DNA from: Myxococcota bacterium
GTDB taxonomy: Bacteria; Myxococcota_C; UBA6777
NCBI GenBank assembly: GCA_023150835.1
Contig: JAKLKB010000131.1
Location: 1-30,856 of the forward strand
Length of the DNA: 30,856 nt
Direction of reading: 5' to 3'
The notes below the pieces were generated by a model, which was not told where the DNA came from, did no database searches, and worked only from the letters and a program-made list of their open reading frames with translations. This document shows positions 3,269 through 30,787 of the stretch, piece by piece (within the stretch, counting starts at the first letter, position 1; every line of letters begins with the position of its first letter). The position numbers and the translations under genes were made by a program.

Positions 3269-4135
3269 CTAGCGACGGATGATCGAGATGTTAAAGATCC
3301 CACGTTGCCGCGCCCGAAAGATCATGATCACGACGCGTTGAGCGCCTTTGCGAAAGTTGAACACAAACTCGAACTGTTCAAAGACCTTGCGGGAGCGGCC
3401 TTCTGCGAGATCGCGAAAGCGCCCCTCGAATTCTTGAACACGGGTACACGGAGCGACTTCTTGAAAGAAGTTTCGCCCGATAACCCGCTCTTTTGGCAGC
3501 CCGACCATCCGCGACTCGGTATCGTTGTAGCCCACCACACGGCCTCTTGCGTCAAGCTGGATCACTCCGTAAGGCAAATCATCCAATTGTTCGTTGCTCA
3601 ACTGATTCACAAAACCGATATCCACGTTCATCGAAGAGGGCATCCCCGCCATCGGAGCTTGAGCAGGCCCTTGGAACGCATAGCCGGGAGGCAAGCCCAC
3701 GCCCAAAGCACCTTCGATCGCCTCCGAAGAAAGCGGAACCGTCGCAACAGCGCGTGGCGTCTGTGACACCCAGCGCGTCTCGTTTCCTGAGGGTTCCGCA
3801 TAAGGCGGATAAGGCGAAGACGGGCGCAGGCTTGAAGAGACAGGAGACAAGGCATCACGTGCAAAGGCCGCACGATTGGGTGGATCCAGTTCAGAAACAC
3901 TTTGGAATGCCTTGCTGTCTAAGGATTCAAGCGGCATCAACGGTGCGCGGATATGATCGGGAAATTCTTGAAACAACGAAACCAACGCATCTTGCGCCGC
4001 AAGCGCATCATCGTCTTGGTTTTCGCGCAACGTCGCTTCGATCTGCCCCAATTGGCGCAAACGCTCTCGGACTTCTTCTTTGAGCTTTTGAACGATCTGC
4101 ATCGTCGGTGAAACAGAAGCCCCTGATGGCGGCAT
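3269..4135 (-). CDS. Photoactive yellow protein-type PAS protein with long N-terminal extension
   Basis: The last 120 residues (about 169-288) align by eye along their length with photoactive yellow protein, the blue-light photoreceptor that binds p-coumaric acid on a cysteine. The chromophore residues are present at the family spacing: Tyr203 (family Tyr42), Glu207 (Glu46) and Cys230 in EVAPCT (Cys69). Thr50 and Arg52 are replaced by Val211 and Leu213, which could shift colour or kinetics. Residues 1-168 have an N-terminal helical stretch (QKLKEEVRERLRQLGQIEAT) and a Pro/Ser-rich linker, with no recognised output domain. The start at 4135 has GAGGAG 7 bases upstream. It lies downstream of the Roadblock-like genes on the same strand. 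The light-sensing role is an inference from conserved residues; a non-photoactive PAS sensor is the alternative. Confidence 0.85.
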   Translation of the reverse strand: MPPSGASVSPTMQIVQKLKEEVRERLRQLGQIEATLRENQDDDALAAQDALVSLFQEFPDHIRAPLMPLESLDSKAFQSVSELDPPNRAAFARDALSPVSSSLRPSSPYPPYAEPSGNETRWVSQTPRAVATVPLSSEAIEGALGVGLPPGYAFQGPAQAPMAGMPSSMNVDIGFVNQLSNEQLDDLPYGVIQLDARGRVVGYNDTESRMVGLPKERVIGRNFFQEVAPCTRVQEFEGRFRDLAEGRSRKVFEQFEFVFNFRKGAQRVVIMIFRARQRGIFNISIIRR

Positions 4136-4189
4136 GCTCGACTCCTCAACAAAAACATCGCCCCCTCCGAAAGAAGGTGGCGATCGCGT

Positions 4190-4233
4190 GGATTCTTTTG
4201 ATTCACGACGGGACGCGGATTCTTTTGATTCAC
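4190..4233 (-). promoter_or_regulatory. Paired 17-bp direct repeat upstream of the PYP-type gene
   Basis: GGATTCTTTTGATTCAC occurs at 4190-4206 and again, identically, at 4217-4233, 27 bp start to start. On the transcribed strand both read GTGAATCAAAAGAATCC. They lie between the PYP-type gene start (4135) and the preceding gene's stop (4257). Each unit has a partial inverted symmetry (GAATC...GATTC). A repressor or activator site, or a simple leader duplication, would both explain it. Confidence 0.5.
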
Positions 4234-4256: not shown

Positions 4257-4991
4257 TCACGATTGAGCAAGAGGTTGAAACGCCGAAGGCTGCGTATCCA
4301 GATGCCATCGAAGCGCCGAAGACAGCGCATCGACCGCACGGACTTCGTGGCTTGTTGCACCAACGAAACTCAACGGGCTTTGGGTGTCATTTCCCAAAGG
4401 ACGCACAAACATCGCCTTGCCATCGAGACTTTGTGCAGACAGCAAAAAGGTCTCTAACTCGATCCCTCGATTCCAAACCCGCTGCGCGATACACCGCACC
4501 AGCGGCATCAAAAACAGAAAATCAGGTAGATGTTTCGTGTACGTCCCCAACAGCAACACACCATCCGCATCATAAACGCCCATCTCTTGGACGGGATAGC
4601 GCTGTAGCCATGCTTGAATCTTCGATTGCAACGGCAAAGCGTAGGTTCCAATCAACGAGGACGCCTTGGCGCGGGAAGAGAGAGGCACCACACCCTGCAC
4701 CGCAGCCGGCGGAGCAACGAGCACTCCGCCATCTTTGGGAGAGATCTCACCACCAAGACGCAGGGCTGCCCGTCCTATCGCCATCCAAGGGATCTCCGCT
4801 CCACCACACACCAACACATACAACGGCGATCCATCCAAACGCAGTATGTGGATCCCTTGGCCTGCAAACTCTTGCGTTAGCACACGCACCGGCCCCTGAA
4901 ACACACGCTCCACCGCAGACCACCCACGATGCAAGATCGCCGCAAGCGCCGCACTTTGCTCACATAACCCGCGATCTCCCACAGCATCCAA
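4257..4991 (-). CDS. Roadblock/LC7-like protein, C-terminal part of a split gene
   Basis: The product (244 residues from the TTG at 4991) has no enzyme motif. Its first 85 residues, read together with the end of the upstream frame, have Roadblock/LC7 features: a strand, a GAPLDA turn, a long helix (QSAALAAILHRGW), two strands ending HILRLDGSPLYVLV and a final helix. A second similar module may start near residue 110 (EMGVYDADGVLLLGTY). Roadblock proteins bind or regulate small GTPases such as MglA. The frame is the direct continuation of the 5001-5318 gene: only a TAA codon at 5003-5001 separates them. It may be made by reinitiation or readthrough, or it may be the dead half of a pseudogene. 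The PYP-type gene follows on the same strand after 121 bp. Confidence 0.55.
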   Translation of the reverse strand: MDAVGDRGLCEQSAALAAILHRGWSAVERVFQGPVRVLTQEFAGQGIHILRLDGSPLYVLVCGGAEIPWMAIGRAALRLGGEISPKDGGVLVAPPAAVQGVVPLSSRAKASSLIGTYALPLQSKIQAWLQRYPVQEMGVYDADGVLLLGTYTKHLPDFLFLMPLVRCIAQRVWNRGIELETFLLSAQSLDGKAMFVRPLGNDTQSPLSFVGATSHEVRAVDALSSALRWHLDTQPSAFQPLAQS

Positions 4992-5000
4992 AGGCGCGCC

Positions 5001-5318
5001 TTACGCATCGACCAACACCACCGCATCGGCTTGCGCTTCGAGTTGAAGTTGCACCAATGCTTGATGCGTCTGCGTACGTTGCGACCAAGCCAGCGGTGGC
5101 TGCGATGGCGGTTGCAGATCTAGCCCCACCCACCGCAAAAGACCTTGCGCTTCGAGTAGCTGCCCTTGAATGGCTTCGGCTTTTGCACGAAACACCGCAG
5201 CATCCGACTCCATGCGCTTTTTCTTCTGTTTGTGCTGCACCCAAAGAAAGGTGGTTGTCATCGCCCAAAACAACGCCAAGACCGCCAAGACGCTCCACAC
5301 CATTTCACTGCCGCTCAT
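5001..5318 (-). CDS. Membrane-anchored N-terminal part of a split Roadblock-like protein
   Basis: The 105-residue frame starts at an ATG with GGGAG 6 bases upstream. Residues 5-27 form one hydrophobic membrane helix (VWSVLAVLALFWAMTTTFLW), followed by a basic stop-transfer run (KQKKKR), a helical linker with proline-rich spacing, and the first helix and strand of a Roadblock/LC7-like domain (ADAVVLVDA). It then meets TAA. The next codons in the same frame (GAPLDAVGD) continue the domain, so the undamaged gene would encode about 353 residues with a single N-terminal anchor and a cytoplasmic Roadblock-like body. A single C-to-T change of CAA (Gln) would create the TAA. Whether this is a real nonsense mutation, a sequencing error or recoding cannot be settled from the sequence. 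Confidence 0.6.
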   Translation of the reverse strand: MSGSEMVWSVLAVLALFWAMTTTFLWVQHKQKKKRMESDAAVFRAKAEAIQGQLLEAQGLLRWVGLDLQPPSQPPLAWSQRTQTHQALVQLQLEAQADAVVLVDA

Positions 5319-5386: not shown

Positions 5387-5615
5387 TACGATATCCGAGT
5401 GATACGAAGTCCGAATGATCTGTGATCGAAGGAGAGCGCCCAGACGCCCGATTGTTGGGCAGCCACACCTGGCTGCCCCTACATTTTTACGATCACACTA
5501 CGGGCGGATCTCGTATGATGCGTTTGCGTAGGATAGTACACAGACGCCCTATTCTTGGGCACCCGCACCTGTCTGCCCCTACGCTTTGCGATCACACTAC
5601 GGGCGGATCTCGTAT
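5387..5615. repeat. Dispersed repeat family B, two tandem copies (B1, B2) with GATATC motif
   Basis: Two copies of a roughly 75-bp element lie at 5441-5516 and 5541-5615. They share CAGACGCCC, a GGGCAGCC-loop-GGCTGCCC hairpin (perfect in B1, degraded in B2) and the tail CGATCACACTACGGGCGGAT. A TACGATATCCGAG motif at 5387-5399 belongs to the same module, because related copies near 8735-8812 and 27056-27143 have the same motif at a similar distance. In the direction of the minus-strand genes the motif lies about 70 bp before the start at 5318. Confidence 0.75.
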
Positions 5616-5630
5616 CACTTGTTCGCCAAC

Positions 5631-5763
5631 AACCCCCGTGTTCGCGTCGGTTCAAGCGAGAGCGTCATCGTGTTGAAAAACAGAGATCGTCTCGCCAAAT
5701 ACGGAGGCATAGGGGCTGTGGCCCCTTGTGGGGTGTGGGGTGAAACCCCACCAAAACAAACCA
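5631..5763 (-). repeat. Dispersed repeat family A, copy A1
   Basis: This intergenic element of about 130 bp shares blocks with 6801-6930, 14031-14160 and 17823-17953. In transcription direction the blocks are a GTGGGG/CCCCAC stem, a second GGGGC/GCCCC stem (5712-5725 on the plus strand), GGCGA-AGA, then a CTCTCGC-like block and CGAACACG. It lies between two minus-strand genes and reads in their sense. Confidence 0.75.
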
Positions 5764-5796
5764 ACCGCGTCACTTCGAGAACAAGCCACGCCTCGA

Positions 5797-6168
5797 TCAC
5801 TCGCCTTTGAGTTGCTTTGCACACTCGCGCAGATCGTGAAGAATCAACCCCAACGCCGCCCGATCACGCGCAAGCGCCGCCAAGATCGTTCCATCCCCCA
5901 GATCTCGCCCAACCAGCACGCCTTGCGAAGCTTCGATCAAAAAGCTCTCCAACATACCGCGCCCCAACTCTTGGGCCGAACGATCCGCCACATCCGCCAC
6001 GCCAACCACCAACGGAGCGATCACATCCGACAACGCCGTCTCTCTAGGCGAGTGCGCACGGATCTGTCCGTCTCCTTCGATCAACGCCAACATCTCGATA
6101 TCTGGCGAGGCTTGGCATACCTGATCCAACAACAATTGAGCTTCGTATCGCTGCATAGACGCCACCAT
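5797..6168 (-). CDS. Roadblock/LC7-family protein (MglB-like)
   Basis: The 123-residue product is the length of a single Roadblock/LC7 domain, the fold of MglB-type GTPase regulators that control polarity and motility, and of related dimeric scaffold proteins. It shows the family order: an N-terminal helix (RYEAQLLLDQVCQ), a strand with EMLALIEGDGQ, a long middle helix, two strands (ESFLIEASQGVLVGRDLG and TILAALA) and a C-terminal helix (LGLILHDLRECAKQL). The start at 6168 has GGGAG 8 bases upstream; the frame is open further upstream but without a better site. No MglA-like GTPase is in this window. With the split Roadblock-like gene downstream it forms a small group next to the PYP-type gene. 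The partner is unknown. Confidence 0.7.
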   Translation of the reverse strand: MVASMQRYEAQLLLDQVCQASPDIEMLALIEGDGQIRAHSPRETALSDVIAPLVVGVADVADRSAQELGRGMLESFLIEASQGVLVGRDLGDGTILAALARDRAALGLILHDLRECAKQLKGE

Positions 6169-6314: not shown

Positions 6315-6722
6315 TCAAGGGTTGGATTCTTCGGCGGGATCTTTAAAGTCGGGAGGGAGATCGCGGAGGGGAGAGGCTTTGGTGGTTTCAAACTGGAGCA
6401 GTTGAACTTGTCCAGCGGGCGCGCCACGGGCTTTTTGGACGTATTGGCGTTGCGTGTAATGAACGTCCACACGGCCACCCTCGCGACTGCGGCTAAAGAA
6501 AACGGCGAGCGCAGCGGCTTCTTTGAGGGTGGTTTTGGGCAAGCGGCTACATTGATCGGGGTTTTGAACGATCACATGCGAGCCAGAAGTAGGCGCGATA
6601 TGCAGCCAAAAATCGTGGGGTTTTGCGATCTTAAAGGTGAGCAGATCGTTGTCTCGGGCATTTTTCCCTACAAGGATCGTCCACCCATCCGAAGAAGTAT
6701 ACGAGCGGTAAGATTCAGCCAT
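6315..6722 (-). CDS. Stand-alone NFACT-R (DUF814) RNA-binding domain protein
   Basis: This 135-residue protein is essentially one NFACT-R domain, the C-terminal RNA-binding module of RqcH/NEMF proteins that add tails to stalled nascent chains on 50S subunits. The key blocks are present: SSDGWTILVGKNARDNDLL, then PHDFWLHIAPTSGSHVIV, then LKEAAALAVFFSRSR and VDVHYTQRQYV. The NFACT-N, HhH and coiled-coil parts of full RqcH are absent from the frame and its neighbours, so this is a natural single-domain version rather than a visibly broken gene. Start ATG 6722 has GAGGA 8 bases upstream; an ATG at 6734 is possible. A role in ribosome rescue or tRNA/rRNA binding is inferred from the domain only. 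Confidence 0.85.
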   Translation of the reverse strand: MAESYRSYTSSDGWTILVGKNARDNDLLTFKIAKPHDFWLHIAPTSGSHVIVQNPDQCSRLPKTTLKEAAALAVFFSRSREGGRVDVHYTQRQYVQKARGAPAGQVQLLQFETTKASPLRDLPPDFKDPAEESNP

Positions 6723-9063: not shown

Positions 9064-10890
9064 TCAATCGCCACCGCCGCCGGGTACATCGCCTTGATAG
9101 AGAGAGTCGAGCAGGTCTTGGTAGCGCTTCATCACGTTGTTGCGCTTGATGCTCATCTTGGGGGTCATCATATCGTTTTCGATCGTAAAGCCTTCGTCGA
9201 GCAAAGCCCATTTTTTGGGCCGTTCGTAGCCTTTGAATTCGGCGCTGTGCTTTTTCAACTCTTCGCCGATCAAAGCGTGTGTACGGGGATCTTTGTTGAT
9301 CTCAGCCAAGGTCTCGCCCGGGACACCGTTTTGCTTGGCCCATGATTTGATGGCTGCTTCGTCGGGGTACACCAACACGACGTTGTAGAGCTTGTTAAAG
9401 CCATACAGGAAGACTTGGTCGATATAACCGCTGAGTTTGAGCAGTTCTTCGAGCGGCGAAGGCACCACATACTTGCCGTTTTCGAGCTTGTATTGTTCTT
9501 TGACACGGCCTGTGATCTTGATAAAGCCCTCAGGATCGATCGAACCCATATCACCTGTGCGAAAAGCGCGTTTGCCGTCCATATCGAAGATCACTTTGGC
9601 CGTATCTTCGGGGTGGTTGTGGTAGCCTTGCATAATGTTCGGCCCGACCACCACGATCTCCCCTTCTTGGCCTTGGGGTAGCTTTTTGCCTTCATCGTTG
9701 CAGATGTAGATCTGCACGCCCGGGATCGGCTTTCCGATCGTGCCGATTTTACGGGCTTGTGGCGAGTTGGCCGACGCGATCGGCGATGTCTCGGTCAAAC
9801 CGTAGCCTTCAAACACCAAGATGCCCACGTTGTCGATGAACATCGCCACTTCACGAGAAAGTGCTGCGCCTCCCGAGAAAGCGTACTTGAGGCGGCCCCC
9901 AAAGCGCGCTTTGACCTTGGAAAACACCAGCTTGTCAAAAAACTTGTACTGTGCATCAAGGAATGCGCTTTTCTTGCCTTGTTCAGCCAATTGACGACGC
10001 TTTTCCGCAACCTTCAAACCTTTTGTAAACAGAAAACGTGCAACCGCCGAACCTGCCGCCATCTTCTTGTTGAGGCCATCGTAGATGCGGTTAAAGATGC
10101 GTGGGACCGCAAACAACAAGGTCGGTTTGACCTCGCCAAAGTTGTCCATCAACGTGGACACACTCTCGGCGATGCCCATCGATGCGCCGCAACTGAGAAG
10201 CACATGCAACTCCACCGTTTGACCAAACGAGTGCGCCCAAGGCAAAAAGCTCAAGCTGCGGTCGTTTTGATCCATCGGAAAGAAACCGTGTACTGCGTTG
10301 ACGTTGGAGATGATGTTGCCGTGTGAGAGGATCACGCCTTTGGGTTTGCCCGTGGTTCCCGATGTGTAGATCAATCCCGCCGTTTCTTCTTCGGTGGGAT
10401 AGATCGGTGGGACGGGAGAAGCCGCGCCTTTCTTCAAGTGCCCTGCGTACGAATAGGCCGCACTTTCGGGTGCTTCAAAGCTGACGATGTGCTGAAGACC
10501 CTTGATCTCTTGGAGAAAAGACTTGGTCTTTTCGTAGATCGCTTCTTTGGCCACGAGCAGCACCTTGGCCCCAGAGTCTTCGACGATATATTTCCAATCT
10601 TTCGGCAGTTGCGACTCATACATCGGTACATAGTGCGCAGCCAAACCATACGTTGCGTACGCTGCCACCGCCCATTCCACACGATTGTCCGCGATCACCG
10701 CAACCTTGTCACCGCGTTTCACCCCAAGCAAGGCCAACGCAGCACGAAATTTGTCCACATCTTGACCGAATTCTTCGTGGGTCATCCACTGATACGCGCC
10801 GTTTTTCTTGGTCCCAAACAACAAGTTCTTTGCGTACCGTTGGCGGGCTTTCACTTGCATATCCACAAGCGAAGAAAAATTCTCAGCCAT
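9064..10890 (-). CDS. Long-chain fatty acid-CoA ligase (AMP-forming), FadD15-type
   Basis: This 608-residue ANL-superfamily enzyme activates a fatty acid with ATP and joins it to CoA, forming AMP. Diagnostic blocks appear in order: YTSGTTGKPKG at 175-185 (P-loop), LPWAHSFGQ near 216-224, the AMP-binding GYGLTETSP at 362-370, TGDM with the ribose-binding Asp, and the C-terminal lysine region MTPKMSIKRN close to the end. Length and motif spelling match the long-chain group rather than 4-coumarate-CoA ligases. ATG 10890 has GAGGAG 6 bases upstream. It is transcribed alone or with a leader from the 585-bp divergent gap shared with rpsD. Fatty acid degradation or recycling of membrane acyl chains is likely; the substrate chain length is not visible. 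Confidence 0.92.
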   Translation of the reverse strand: MAENFSSLVDMQVKARQRYAKNLLFGTKKNGAYQWMTHEEFGQDVDKFRAALALLGVKRGDKVAVIADNRVEWAVAAYATYGLAAHYVPMYESQLPKDWKYIVEDSGAKVLLVAKEAIYEKTKSFLQEIKGLQHIVSFEAPESAAYSYAGHLKKGAASPVPPIYPTEEETAGLIYTSGTTGKPKGVILSHGNIISNVNAVHGFFPMDQNDRSLSFLPWAHSFGQTVELHVLLSCGASMGIAESVSTLMDNFGEVKPTLLFAVPRIFNRIYDGLNKKMAAGSAVARFLFTKGLKVAEKRRQLAEQGKKSAFLDAQYKFFDKLVFSKVKARFGGRLKYAFSGGAALSREVAMFIDNVGILVFEGYGLTETSPIASANSPQARKIGTIGKPIPGVQIYICNDEGKKLPQGQEGEIVVVGPNIMQGYHNHPEDTAKVIFDMDGKRAFRTGDMGSIDPEGFIKITGRVKEQYKLENGKYVVPSPLEELLKLSGYIDQVFLYGFNKLYNVVLVYPDEAAIKSWAKQNGVPGETLAEINKDPRTHALIGEELKKHSAEFKGYERPKKWALLDEGFTIENDMMTPKMSIKRNNVMKRYQDLLDSLYQGDVPGGGGD

Positions 10891-11475
10891 CGCTCTCTCC
10901 TCAAATGTAACGAAAGACTGCTTGTGCCGACGCGTACGCCCGCTCCTGCGCAGCGCACACCCCTCAAACAGCAAAAATGTTTCTTATCAGCGCTGCAACC
11001 ACCTAGGCAGCTATGCCCTCTCAAGCCCTTCTAGGGTCCCGAGATATCGCCCCTTTGTGGATGCGCATTGCAGGCTTAGCAGATGCCCATCCGAAAATCA
11101 AGCCATCGCCCTGCTTTTGTTTCAACGCCTACTGAAAATTCGCTTGACAACAGGAACCTCTGCGTTGTATCTCTGTCCCCCTAAAAATGCGTCGTTTGGA
11201 TCACACGATCCTTGCCATCCACGCAAACACCCTTTGCACAACGCACACGACGCACACCAAATCGAGATCAGACTCCACATCTTAGACCTGTGGCGTTCTC
11301 CTCGTCACAAGGCCCTTTCATGTTTCGCGCAGGTTTCTTCTCTGCGGCTGGAGAATCGACCTACCTCAATCGCGAGATCATCCGTCAAGCCTTGCTGCTT
11401 CACCTTGCAAACACAAACTATCCTTTTGACTTTCTTGCGCAACATCGCGCAAAACGATTCTTTGGAGGTTCCCTC
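10891..11475. other. 585-bp divergent intergenic region between the acyl-CoA ligase gene and rpsD
   Basis: No convincing gene is present; the open frame running into rpsD is only an upstream extension without a ribosome site. A sigma70-like TTGACA lies at 11144-11149. The final 300 bp would then form a long rpsD leader. I see no recognisable riboswitch or S4 autoregulatory fold, but cannot fold it here. Confidence 0.5.
11144..11173 (+). promoter_or_regulatory. Putative rpsD promoter
   Basis: TTGACA at 11144-11149 is followed after 18 bp by TATCTC (11168-11173), a weak -10. It is the best sigma70-like match in the divergent gap and would give a leader of about 295 nt before rpsD. Confidence 0.35.
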
Positions 11476-18018: not shown

Positions 18019-19101
18019 ATGAAAACAAGGTATTTACTTGCCATCGAAAGCTCTTGTGACGAAACGGCGGCTGCTGTAATCGCCATCGCAGAAGACGGAG
18101 CTTTCGCCCTTCGCTCTAGTCTCGTCGCAAGCCAAGTCGATATACACGCCCGTTATGGCGGAGTGGTGCCTGAGATCGCAAGCCGCACCCATCTCGAAGT
18201 CGCCTTGCCCCTGATCCAAGATGCTTTGCGTGAAGCGCAGATCCAGCGCCAAGACCTCGCAGCCATCGCCGTGACACGCGGCCCCGGTCTGATCGGAGCT
18301 TTGCTCGTTGGACTCCAGATCGCCAAAGCCATCGCCTTTGCATGGAAACTCCCGCTAATCGGCGTCAATCACCTCGCAGGACACCTCGAAGCCGTCTTTC
18401 TCGAAGACCGCACCCCCACCTTTCCTTTTCTCGCCCTCTTGGTTTCGGGCGGACACACCACCCTTTATCGCGTCGATGAACACGGGCAATACAAACATCT
18501 CGGCGCAACCCGCGACGATGCCGCTGGCGAAGCCTTCGACAAAGCCGCCAAGATGCTCGGCCTCGGTTATCCGGGCGGTGTGCAGATCGATCGACTCGCG
18601 CAACAAGGCGATCCCTCCCGCTTCCCCTTCCCACGCTCCATGATGCGCCAAGATCAGGGCCTCGACTTTAGTTTCTCTGGACTCAAAACCGCCTGTCGCA
18701 ACACCCTCGAAAAACTTGCCCTCCCACTCGAACCCTCCATCCTGTCGGACTTTTGTGCGTCCTACCAAGAGGCCATCGTCGACGCACTCTGGCAAAAAAC
18801 CGCCCTCGCCCTTCAACTACAATCCCTCTCCTCCGTCGTCGTGACAGGTGGCGTTGCCGCCAACAGCCGCTTGCGCAGCCTCTTCCAAAACCAATGCCAA
18901 AAATACGGATACAGCTTGTTTTTGCCCTCTCGCCGCTTTTGCACCGACAACGCCGCCATGATCGCCGCTGCCGCTGTCCCTCCCTTCCTCCAAGCCCGAT
19001 TTGACGACCTTTCCCTCAACGCTACAGGCAAGCTCCCCCTCGATCCCAGCGCCCTCCCTCGCGGACCTCGCCGACCTCCCCGCTCCACCCAAAACACATA
19101 A
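18019..19101 (+). CDS. tsaD: tRNA N6-adenosine threonylcarbamoyltransferase
   Basis: This 360-residue ASKHA-fold protein transfers threonylcarbamoyl from TsaC-made threonylcarbamoyl-AMP to A37 of ANN-reading tRNAs, together with TsaB and TsaE. It begins YLLAIESSCDETAAAV. The iron-binding histidines are in VNHLAGHLEA (His118 and His122), with the third ligand Asp310 in FCTDNAAMIA. The nucleotide-fold blocks LLVSGGHTTL, GEAFDKAAKMLGLGYPGG and VVTGGVAANSRLR are intact. The C-terminal tail is basic and Pro-rich (RGPRRPPRSTQNT). The ATG has only a weak AAAGAAAAAA upstream. The stop codon directly abuts a 119-nt pyrimidine tract. tsaB and tsaE are not in the window. Confidence 0.96.
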   Translation: MKTRYLLAIESSCDETAAAVIAIAEDGAFALRSSLVASQVDIHARYGGVVPEIASRTHLEVALPLIQDALREAQIQRQDLAAIAVTRGPGLIGALLVGLQIAKAIAFAWKLPLIGVNHLAGHLEAVFLEDRTPTFPFLALLVSGGHTTLYRVDEHGQYKHLGATRDDAAGEAFDKAAKMLGLGYPGGVQIDRLAQQGDPSRFPFPRSMMRQDQGLDFSFSGLKTACRNTLEKLALPLEPSILSDFCASYQEAIVDALWQKTALALQLQSLSSVVVTGGVAANSRLRSLFQNQCQKYGYSLFLPSRRFCTDNAAMIAAAAVPPFLQARFDDLSLNATGKLPLDPSALPRGPRRPPRSTQNT

Positions 19102-19220
19102 CTTTCCTCTTCTTCCTCTTCTTCCTCTTCCTTCTTCCTCTTCTTCCTCTTCTTCCTCTTCTTCCTCTTCTTCCTCTTCTTCCTCTTCTTCCTCTTCTTC
19201 CTCTTCTTCCTCTTCTTCTT
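19102..19220. repeat. 119-nt pure pyrimidine tract, (CTTCTTCCT)n microsatellite
   Basis: Every base from 19102 to 19220 on the plus strand is C or T, mostly perfect 9-mers of CTTCTTCCT with one shift near 19130. It begins immediately after the tsaD stop. Beyond it come three close copies of TTCCGTG (about 19223-19248) and a hairpin AGAGCC/GGCTCT (about 19452-19483). No gene is supported in the 402-bp gap 19102-19503; long Glu/Lys/Arg-rich minus-strand frames are artefacts of the tract. Confidence 0.9.
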
Positions 19221-19503
19221 ATTTCCGTGTTTTCCGTGCTTTCCGTGGACTCTTTTTGTGCGTACCTGTTTGAACCTTTTTCCTTTCGTTGCGTCCAAGG
19301 CCGCATCTTTCTCTTTTGCAAAGGATTTTCGCGCCATGCCTGTTTGTTTGCTCGTTTGAATGCCCACAGCCCTTTTCCCTCGATAGATCCGCGTATTTGC
19401 GGGCTTCTGTATTTCTCGCAGGAGAGAAGGTCTGTGTTTGTGCGATCGACCCAAGAGCCCATCGGACAGCCCGTCTATCGGCTCTCTACAAACGAGTCAA
19501 CAC

Positions 19504-29416: not shown

Positions 29417-30730
29417 AGGGCGGTAGTTGTCAAGAAAGTTGTCGCCTAGACACTACGTTTGTTCAGACTCTTTTTTGGGGGGTGGGTTCAAAACCACCGA
29501 GCCAACAGGTTGAAAGTTCCTGATCGGTTTGGCCCATCGTTCGGGATGTTTCTCTCGTGCTGCTTCGTACACTTTCTTTCTATGAGCCAGTATTTCTCGA
29601 TCTTTTCCTTCGTGCCGCTGTTCGGGCGTCACGTAGCCTATTCCTGAATGCCGATGCTCCGTGTTGTACCAACGCACAAACCGCAACGCCCACTCTCGCG
29701 CCTCTTCTATCCGCGTGAATCCTTTCTCTGGATATTCCGGACGGTACTTGCATGTCCGAAACACCAACTCACTGAAAGCGTTGTCGTTGCTCACTCTGGG
29801 CCGACTATGCGAGCGTTCTACACCCAACGACTCCAACAGTCCGCTCAAATGCGACCCTTTTTGCGGACTCCCGTTGTCGGCGTGAAGTACGCGCAACGTT
29901 CCTGCGCATTTTTCCGACCAGACCGCTTTCCGCACCACGTCTTCCGCATACTCACTGCTCTCTCTGTCGTATACTTCCCAACCTACGATCTTTCGGCTGT
30001 AGAGGTCGAGCAACAGGTACAAGTAGAAGAACAAACCCCGCACGGGACCCGGAAGCCACGTGATATCCCACGTCCATACTTCGCATGGACCGCTCGCTTC
30101 GTGTGTTTTCGCCTCTCCTCGTTTTTGTGGCCACGCCGCCCGTCCTCGCGGATGCACTGCGTCTTCTTCTCGTAGGATTCGATAAAACGTCGCTTCTGAC
30201 GCCAAATACACCCCTTCGTCCGCTAGTCGTGGCACGATCTGACTCGGAGGCATCGAAGAATACGTTGGGCTGTTGCACACCGCAAGCACTTGTTCTCTTT
30301 CCTCTTCTCGCAATTTGTTCGCTGGCACCGGACGTTTCGCGTTGGGCCTTTTGTCTTCCTGCACTTCCTCTCCACGCACCCAGCGCGGCCACGTTCTCTT
30401 TGAGATACCCAACACTTCGCAACAAGGCTCCAAGCGCGCTCCGCTTTTTCGGGCTTCTTCTACCCATTCTGCCACTTGACGCCGCTTTTCCAAGGGAATC
30501 ATTCTTCCTCTCCGTCCCTCCAAAGCGTGTCCACTTTTTTTTTCAGCACCAACAAGGCCGCTGCTTCGCACTTTTTTTTTCAGCACCAACAAGGCCGCTG
30601 CTTCGGCCAATGCCTTCTCTTTTCGCGTCAACTCTTTTTGCAACCGTTGGGTTTCTTTCTGCTGTTCTTTGACTTGCTGTTTGAGTTGTCTCTCTTGGGC
30701 TTCTCGCCAATCATTGCTGACTCTAACGGA
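29417..30730 (-). mobile_element. IS3-like insertion sequence, 5'-truncated
   Basis: The element carries the transposase described in the next entry. Its 3' end is probably near 29417, where TGTCAAGAAAGTTGTCGCC resembles an IS3-type terminal inverted repeat. The other end is missing: the OrfA N-terminal helix-turn-helix region is replaced near 30725-30735 by unrelated sequence. Exact ends are estimates. Confidence 0.55.
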
Positions 30731-30787
30731 TTTTGTGTAAGGTGACAAAAGTAGAAAGAGAGGGTACCCTAGACCCTGCATACCCAA
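29453..30787 (-). CDS. IS3-like transposase, OrfA and OrfB fused, N-terminus truncated
   Basis: The frame encodes 444 residues. Residues 96-444 are a complete OrfB with an HTH region (PCCEVLGISKRTWPRW) and a DDE integrase core: Asp241 in WTWDITWL, Asp304 in HADNGSPQ and Glu340 in AFSELVF, with exactly 35 residues between the last two. Residues 25-72 (NDWREAQERQL through ALAEAAALLVLKKK) are the C-terminal part of OrfA. Residues 73-95 are a junction created by a 37-bp tandem duplication (30532-30605). Without it OrfA would end in a TGA overlapping the OrfB ATG at 30502. The first 24 residues are unrelated to OrfA. The truncated OrfA suggests the element can no longer move by itself. Confidence 0.85.
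   Translation of the reverse strand: MGMQGLGYPLFLLLSPYTKSVRVSNDWREAQERQLKQQVKEQQKETQRLQKELTRKEKALAEAAALLVLKKKVRSSGLVGAEKKSGHALEGRRGRMIPLEKRRQVAEWVEEARKSGARLEPCCEVLGISKRTWPRWVRGEEVQEDKRPNAKRPVPANKLREEEREQVLAVCNSPTYSSMPPSQIVPRLADEGVYLASEATFYRILREEDAVHPRGRAAWPQKRGEAKTHEASGPCEVWTWDITWLPGPVRGLFFYLYLLLDLYSRKIVGWEVYDRESSEYAEDVVRKAVWSEKCAGTLRVLHADNGSPQKGSHLSGLLESLGVERSHSRPRVSNDNAFSELVFRTCKYRPEYPEKGFTRIEEAREWALRFVRWYNTEHRHSGIGYVTPEQRHEGKDREILAHRKKVYEAAREKHPERWAKPIRNFQPVGSVVLNPPPKKESEQT
30532..30605 (-). repeat. Perfect 37-bp tandem duplication inside the transposase gene
   Basis: Units 30532-30568 and 30569-30605 are identical and each contains a run of nine T (nine A in the coding sense). As 37 is not a multiple of three, the duplication shifts the OrfA frame into the OrfB frame. 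Confidence 0.95.

Follow-up and report, generated by a model that had tools for sequence, protein, structure and literature searches.

A predicted photoactive yellow protein of Myxococcota and a recurrent set of Roadblock-like neighbor genes that may carry its signal

To what does a photoactive yellow protein (PYP) pass its signal? The relay of the PYP signal is a gap named by the 2025 survey of the family (PMC12826048), and the question takes a concrete form at a gene of a Myxococcota bacterium (assembly GCA_023150835.1, contig JAKLKB010000131.1), which we analyzed within a stretch of 30,856 nucleotides, here called the window. The gene reads along the minus strand from an ATG at 4135, preceded by GAGGAG, to 3269; the same stretch on the plus strand contains six stops. 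Its parts are as follows.

3269..4135, minus strand: PYP gene, 288 amino acids, with an N-terminal helix, a disordered Pro/Ser linker, and a C-terminal PYP domain
3272..3619, minus strand: PYP domain, residues ~173-288, from the alignment; PYP fold, AlphaFold pLDDT ~95
3527-3529, 3515-3517, and 3446-3448, minus strand: codons of Tyr42, Glu46, and Cys69 (PYP numbering)
3503-3505 and 3497-3499, minus strand: codons of Val50 and Leu52
4022..4108, minus strand: N-terminal helix, residues 10-38, coiled-coil-like, AlphaFold pLDDT ~90

The 288-residue protein almost certainly belongs to the PYP family, and its likeness to PYP, judged from sequence, is far beyond chance. The NCBIfam profile TIGR02373 matches residues 176-277 (E = 9e-26) with 90.4 bits, below the 143-bit cut-off of this equivalog (photo_yellow); according to one survey (PMC9664959), this profile recognizes just a fifth of the PYP homologs known. 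Searches with phmmer returned Ppr-PYP (1mzu; E = 2e-20) and the structures of Halorhodospira halophila PYP (E ~1e-16). The original prediction had equated Tyr203, Glu207, and Cys230 with Tyr42, Glu46, and Cys69 of PYP and had proposed a profile search and a structure prediction as checks; the assignment is borne out by TIGR02373, phmmer, and the alignment. The residue by which the family is defined, Cys69 (PMC9664959), is here Cys230, within NFFQEVAPCT. In the AlphaFold model, built on a 46-row alignment, the domain adopts the PYP fold with the pocket residues of a normal PYP, and every top Foldseek match is a PYP (E ~1e-11; TMt 0.83-0.91), with Ppr-PYP (1mzu_A) superposing at TMt 0.91 and 1.3 Å over 104 columns.

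Within the clade of PYPs to which this protein belongs, pocket positions 42, 46, 62, 63, 67, 68, 69, 92, and 96 are identical in all 16 members, and from this intact pocket we infer that p-coumarate would be held covalently on Cys69. A different reading, that of a PAS domain which resembles PYP and makes no use of p-coumarate (a redox or ligand sensor, for example), draws on the few PYP homologs that have lost Cys69 and are possible redox sensors (PMC9664959). It is highly improbable in this case, given that Cys69, Tyr42, and Glu46 are retained both here and in 16/16 clade members and that the fold matches are to PYP.

Two tuning positions had been singled out as departing from classical PYP, and both residues had been read correctly: the alignment places Val211 at position 50 and Leu213 at position 52. 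Val50 is indeed unusual, occurring in 4 of 111 aligned PYPs, all four inside the clade just mentioned; the T50V mutant of the H. halophila protein, whose structure (1f98) is among the matches, carries the same residue. Leu52 is no departure, being the consensus over 984 PYPs (PMC12826048) and present in 35 of the 111 aligned here. Residue 100 is Lys in the window PYP, and Met100 and Trp119 are missing from all PYPs of the clade, an absence that predicts altered dark recovery; the lack of Met100 in particular would make it slow.

The layout described by the original prediction, a C-terminal PYP behind a helical start and a Pro/Ser linker, agrees with the AlphaFold model. Helix 10-38 has hydrophobic residues at 6 of 8 a/d positions in its best heptad register, and the linker (~63-165) is mostly of low AlphaFold confidence, Pro/Ser-rich, and predicted to be disordered. 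The extension had been called unfamiliar, but it is common to the extended PYPs of one clade, most other members of which also have helical, often heptad-like starts. With H. halophila PYP and Rhodospirillum centenum Ppr-PYP the window PYP shares the PYP/PAS fold, Tyr42, Glu46, Cys69, and the aromatic pocket; it differs from them in its C-terminal position on a helix and linker, in Val50, Lys100, and the lack of Trp119, and in its Roadblock operon. MCP-PYP and PAS-PAS-HisKA-HATPase-PYP fusions (PMC12826048) likewise carry PYP at the C terminus of a longer protein; the window chain, unlike these, has no output domain of its own, and the candidates are separate genes.

Those candidates lie immediately upstream, on the same strand.

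5797..6168, minus strand: gene 1, 123 amino acids, a single Roadblock/LC7 domain (PF03259, over cut-off)
5425..5790, strand not given: cluster of interspersed repeats between genes 1 and 2
4257..5318, minus strand: gene 2, with an N-terminal transmembrane helix, a coiled coil, and two domains resembling Roadblock; an in-frame TAA breaks the gene
5001..5003, minus strand: the in-frame TAA in gene 2, a sense codon in intact relatives (mostly R, D, E, or P)

A scan turned up 222 stretches encoding PYP, of which 80 loci were kept, and PYP was present in 46 of the 377 Myxococcota genomes searched. Gene calling around the best PYP loci showed a recurring order: Roadblock gene, transmembrane Roadblock gene, PYP. 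By the gene 1 profile, 14 of 16 loci in a single PYP clade (12 genomes, chiefly of Myxococcota) have this trio, whereas no Roadblock gene adjoins PYP at the 75 other loci (1.05 Mb); Fisher's test gives p ~1e-14 if loci are treated as independent, which they are not. The clade is supported at 95/84 (16 rows). Two of its loci, L003 and L004, are without gene 1, and L004 retains an apparent gene 2 end with frame breaks. At L134 the order is permuted (PYP, Roadblock gene, transmembrane Roadblock gene), and this permutation, along with flanking genes that change from locus to locus, suggests that the trio travels as a unit. Furthermore, the 7.6-Mb window genome contains just two PF03259 matches, gene 1 and a canonical MglB, which makes chance adjacency to PYP unlikely. 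Very probably, then, the PYP gene is part of a conserved three-gene module with Roadblock proteins. The protein would be a light sensor, and its output, described as unknown by the original prediction, now has candidate partners in this conserved operon.

No PYP was found in genomes G001-G004 of the same GTDB phylum; the contig of G001 stops at window base 6488, before gene 1, so the absence from that genome is uninformative. Viral contigs contained no relative. Mis-binning of the contig was considered and rejected: its S4 is 98% identical to that of a same-genus genome, the flanking genes are mostly 88-97% identical to those of that genome, and the repeat family is present on many contigs of G000.

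Roadblock-type proteins are relatives of regulators of polarity-setting small GTPases. Gene 1 of the window passes the PF03259 gathering cut-off (24.3 versus 23 bits), as do its relatives at L130, L131, and L137, with that of L132 falling below. A profile built from eleven copies of gene 1 matched Roadblock structures at E = 3e-18, CvnB5 of the conservons (3leq) at E = 9e-9, and MglB at E = 7e-5, placing gene 1 closer to archaeal and CvnB-type Roadblocks than to MglB. The trio differs from conservons in having neither an adjoining GTPase gene nor a conserved fourth gene among those called.

Gene 2 is more divergent. A hydrophobic N-terminal segment is present in 14/14 copies, and the coiled coil that follows varies in length among them. 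In profile comparisons its first and second domains matched gene 1 (E = 4e-5 and 9e-5, respectively) and each other (E = 2e-5). The copy of L131 stayed below the PF03259 cut-off (21.9 versus 23 bits), and no Robl_LC7 match was found in the window pieces or in the copies of L005, L006, L129, and L130. The window copy was modeled by reading through its stop, with a mean pLDDT of ~50. In this low-confidence model, the first domain fits Myxococcus xanthus MglB best among solved structures (6izw; Z 12.8, rmsd 3.0 over 124 residues), suggesting with low confidence an MglB-like fold; Ragulator p14/MP1 is among the structural matches, and the second domain would repeat the helix and strand order of the first. 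The M. xanthus MglA/MglB module (PMC9481161, PMC6876712) is comparable in its Roadblock-fold partners and in the predicted MglB-like first domain of gene 2; it differs in that the trio has no GTPase, that gene 2 is membrane anchored with tandem domains, and that a photoreceptor is added.

Relatives carry an intact gene 2. The in-frame stop leaves two readings for the window: either its copy is decaying, and the module may then be broken, or the assembly contains one wrong base. Reassignment of the stop codon was rejected because TAA serves as the stop of S4, TsaD, and RsmA elsewhere in the window. Genes 1 and 2, which almost touch in relatives, are split in the window by a cluster of the ~100-bp repeat family, which has 52 matches in the window genome and is also present in the same-genus genome.

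Supply of the chromophore bears on the same question. The original prediction had suggested looking for lyase and ligase genes, and this search returned a mixed answer: no tyrosine ammonia lyase (TAL) was found in the window genome (assembly 93% complete), only a Ser-His, histidine-type lyase, whereas nothing in the predicted fold or the pocket residues sets this protein apart from a normal PYP. Among clade genomes a TAL motif occurs in only two (G007 and G158), the others, the window's included, showing histidine-type motifs only. At L005, in G007, a CoA ligase and a TAL (His-Leu switch, YHLATGVG), divergent, adjoin the trio, and this TAL shares 44-49% identity with the lyases that neighbor pyp in Halomonas-type loci; the TAL of G158 lies near a second PYP gene. 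TAL is found in just 5% of pyp operons (PMC12826048), so its absence does not refute the chromophore. A 636-residue AMP-binding protein encoded at 9064-10974 is ~25% identical to the L005 ligase, and we do not claim it as a p-coumarate ligase.

Might the window module, then, be decaying or unlit, its PYP a leftover or an apo-protein? The interrupted gene 2, the repeats that part genes 1 and 2, and the histidine-type lyase as the sole lyase found all point that way. Set against them are a PYP frame that is open with every pocket residue kept, an intact gene 1, the lack of TAL near most known pyp genes (PMC12826048), a possible external source of p-coumarate, the possibility that the gene 2 stop is an assembly error, and an assembly completeness of 93%. 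On balance we judge a decaying or unlit module improbable.

Several other features of the window can be mentioned here. A 20-bp repeat, CGTGGATTCTTTTGATTCAC, is present in two tandem copies at 4187-4233, in the gap that separates gene 2 from the PYP gene. A PIN-domain protein (568-987) and an AbiEii-like nucleotidyltransferase (2158-2766, weak match) are possible toxin-antitoxin parts, an rve-type integrase core of an IS-like transposase is encoded at 29453-30787 on the minus strand, and a long low-complexity run (19022-19273, poly-Ser or Arg-rich frames) lies beside the TsaD gene.

Our preferred reading, to which we give a probability of roughly 45% as a whole, is that the three genes constitute a blue-light module with an MglA-type GTPase as its output. 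The PYP domain would bind p-coumarate via Cys69 and enter its photocycle in the light; the change would travel along the linker and the N-terminal helix and so reach two Roadblock-type proteins in a complex, one soluble and one membrane anchored; this complex would shift the activity or place of an MglA-type Ras-like GTPase encoded elsewhere in the genome; and the altered GTPase would affect polarity or surface motility. Signaling through a Roadblock complex is the probable part of this scheme. A small GTPase as the target, proposed by analogy, is more tentative, at slightly less than even odds, and a physical complex of the trio products and a motility output are inferred. A stricter version, in which a membrane-bound Roadblock complex that controls MglA is switched by PYP itself, so that blue light sets cell polarity or reversal, we regard as doubtful.

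The analogy comes from M. xanthus, which itself has no PYP gene (PMC11832031). Its MglB is a Roadblock GAP of MglA, and a partner, RomY, tunes MglB action (PMC9481161); by extension, light acting through the PYP trio could adjust an MglA. At none of the trio loci is a GTPase encoded within or close to the trio, but each of the 14 clade genomes tested encodes at least one MglA-type GTPase, and the window genome has a canonical MglB-MglA pair away from the trio. Because proteins of this type are widespread in this region of the tree, finding them in clade genomes counts for little.

The operon without a GTPase also suits an alternative in which no small GTPase takes part and PYP signals via Roadblock proteins that form a membrane scaffold, or a dimer for docking, for another partner, such as a kinase or the machinery of motility or of the surface. 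Roadblock folds act as scaffolds too, as the p14/MP1 matches recall, and gene 1, by its profile, resembles archaeal and CvnB-type Roadblocks more than MglB; on the other hand, no solved structure fits the first domain of gene 2 better than MglB does, and MglA-type GTPases are encoded by all clade genomes tested. We consider this scaffold function possible but rather unlikely.

Whichever of these holds, the clade supplies specific, conserved candidate PYP partners that are open to purification and testing, and if a partner acts on MglA, as in the reading we prefer, photoreception would be joined to the switch that sets polarity in gliding bacteria; no paper found in the open-access literature describes such a link. 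Two PYP surveys (PMC9664959, PMC12826048) do not mention Roadblock neighbors in their main text. Another possible output is suggested at three further Myxococcota loci (L138, L143, and L146), where PYP forms the N terminus of ~364-residue proteins encoded right behind serine/threonine-kinase-like genes.
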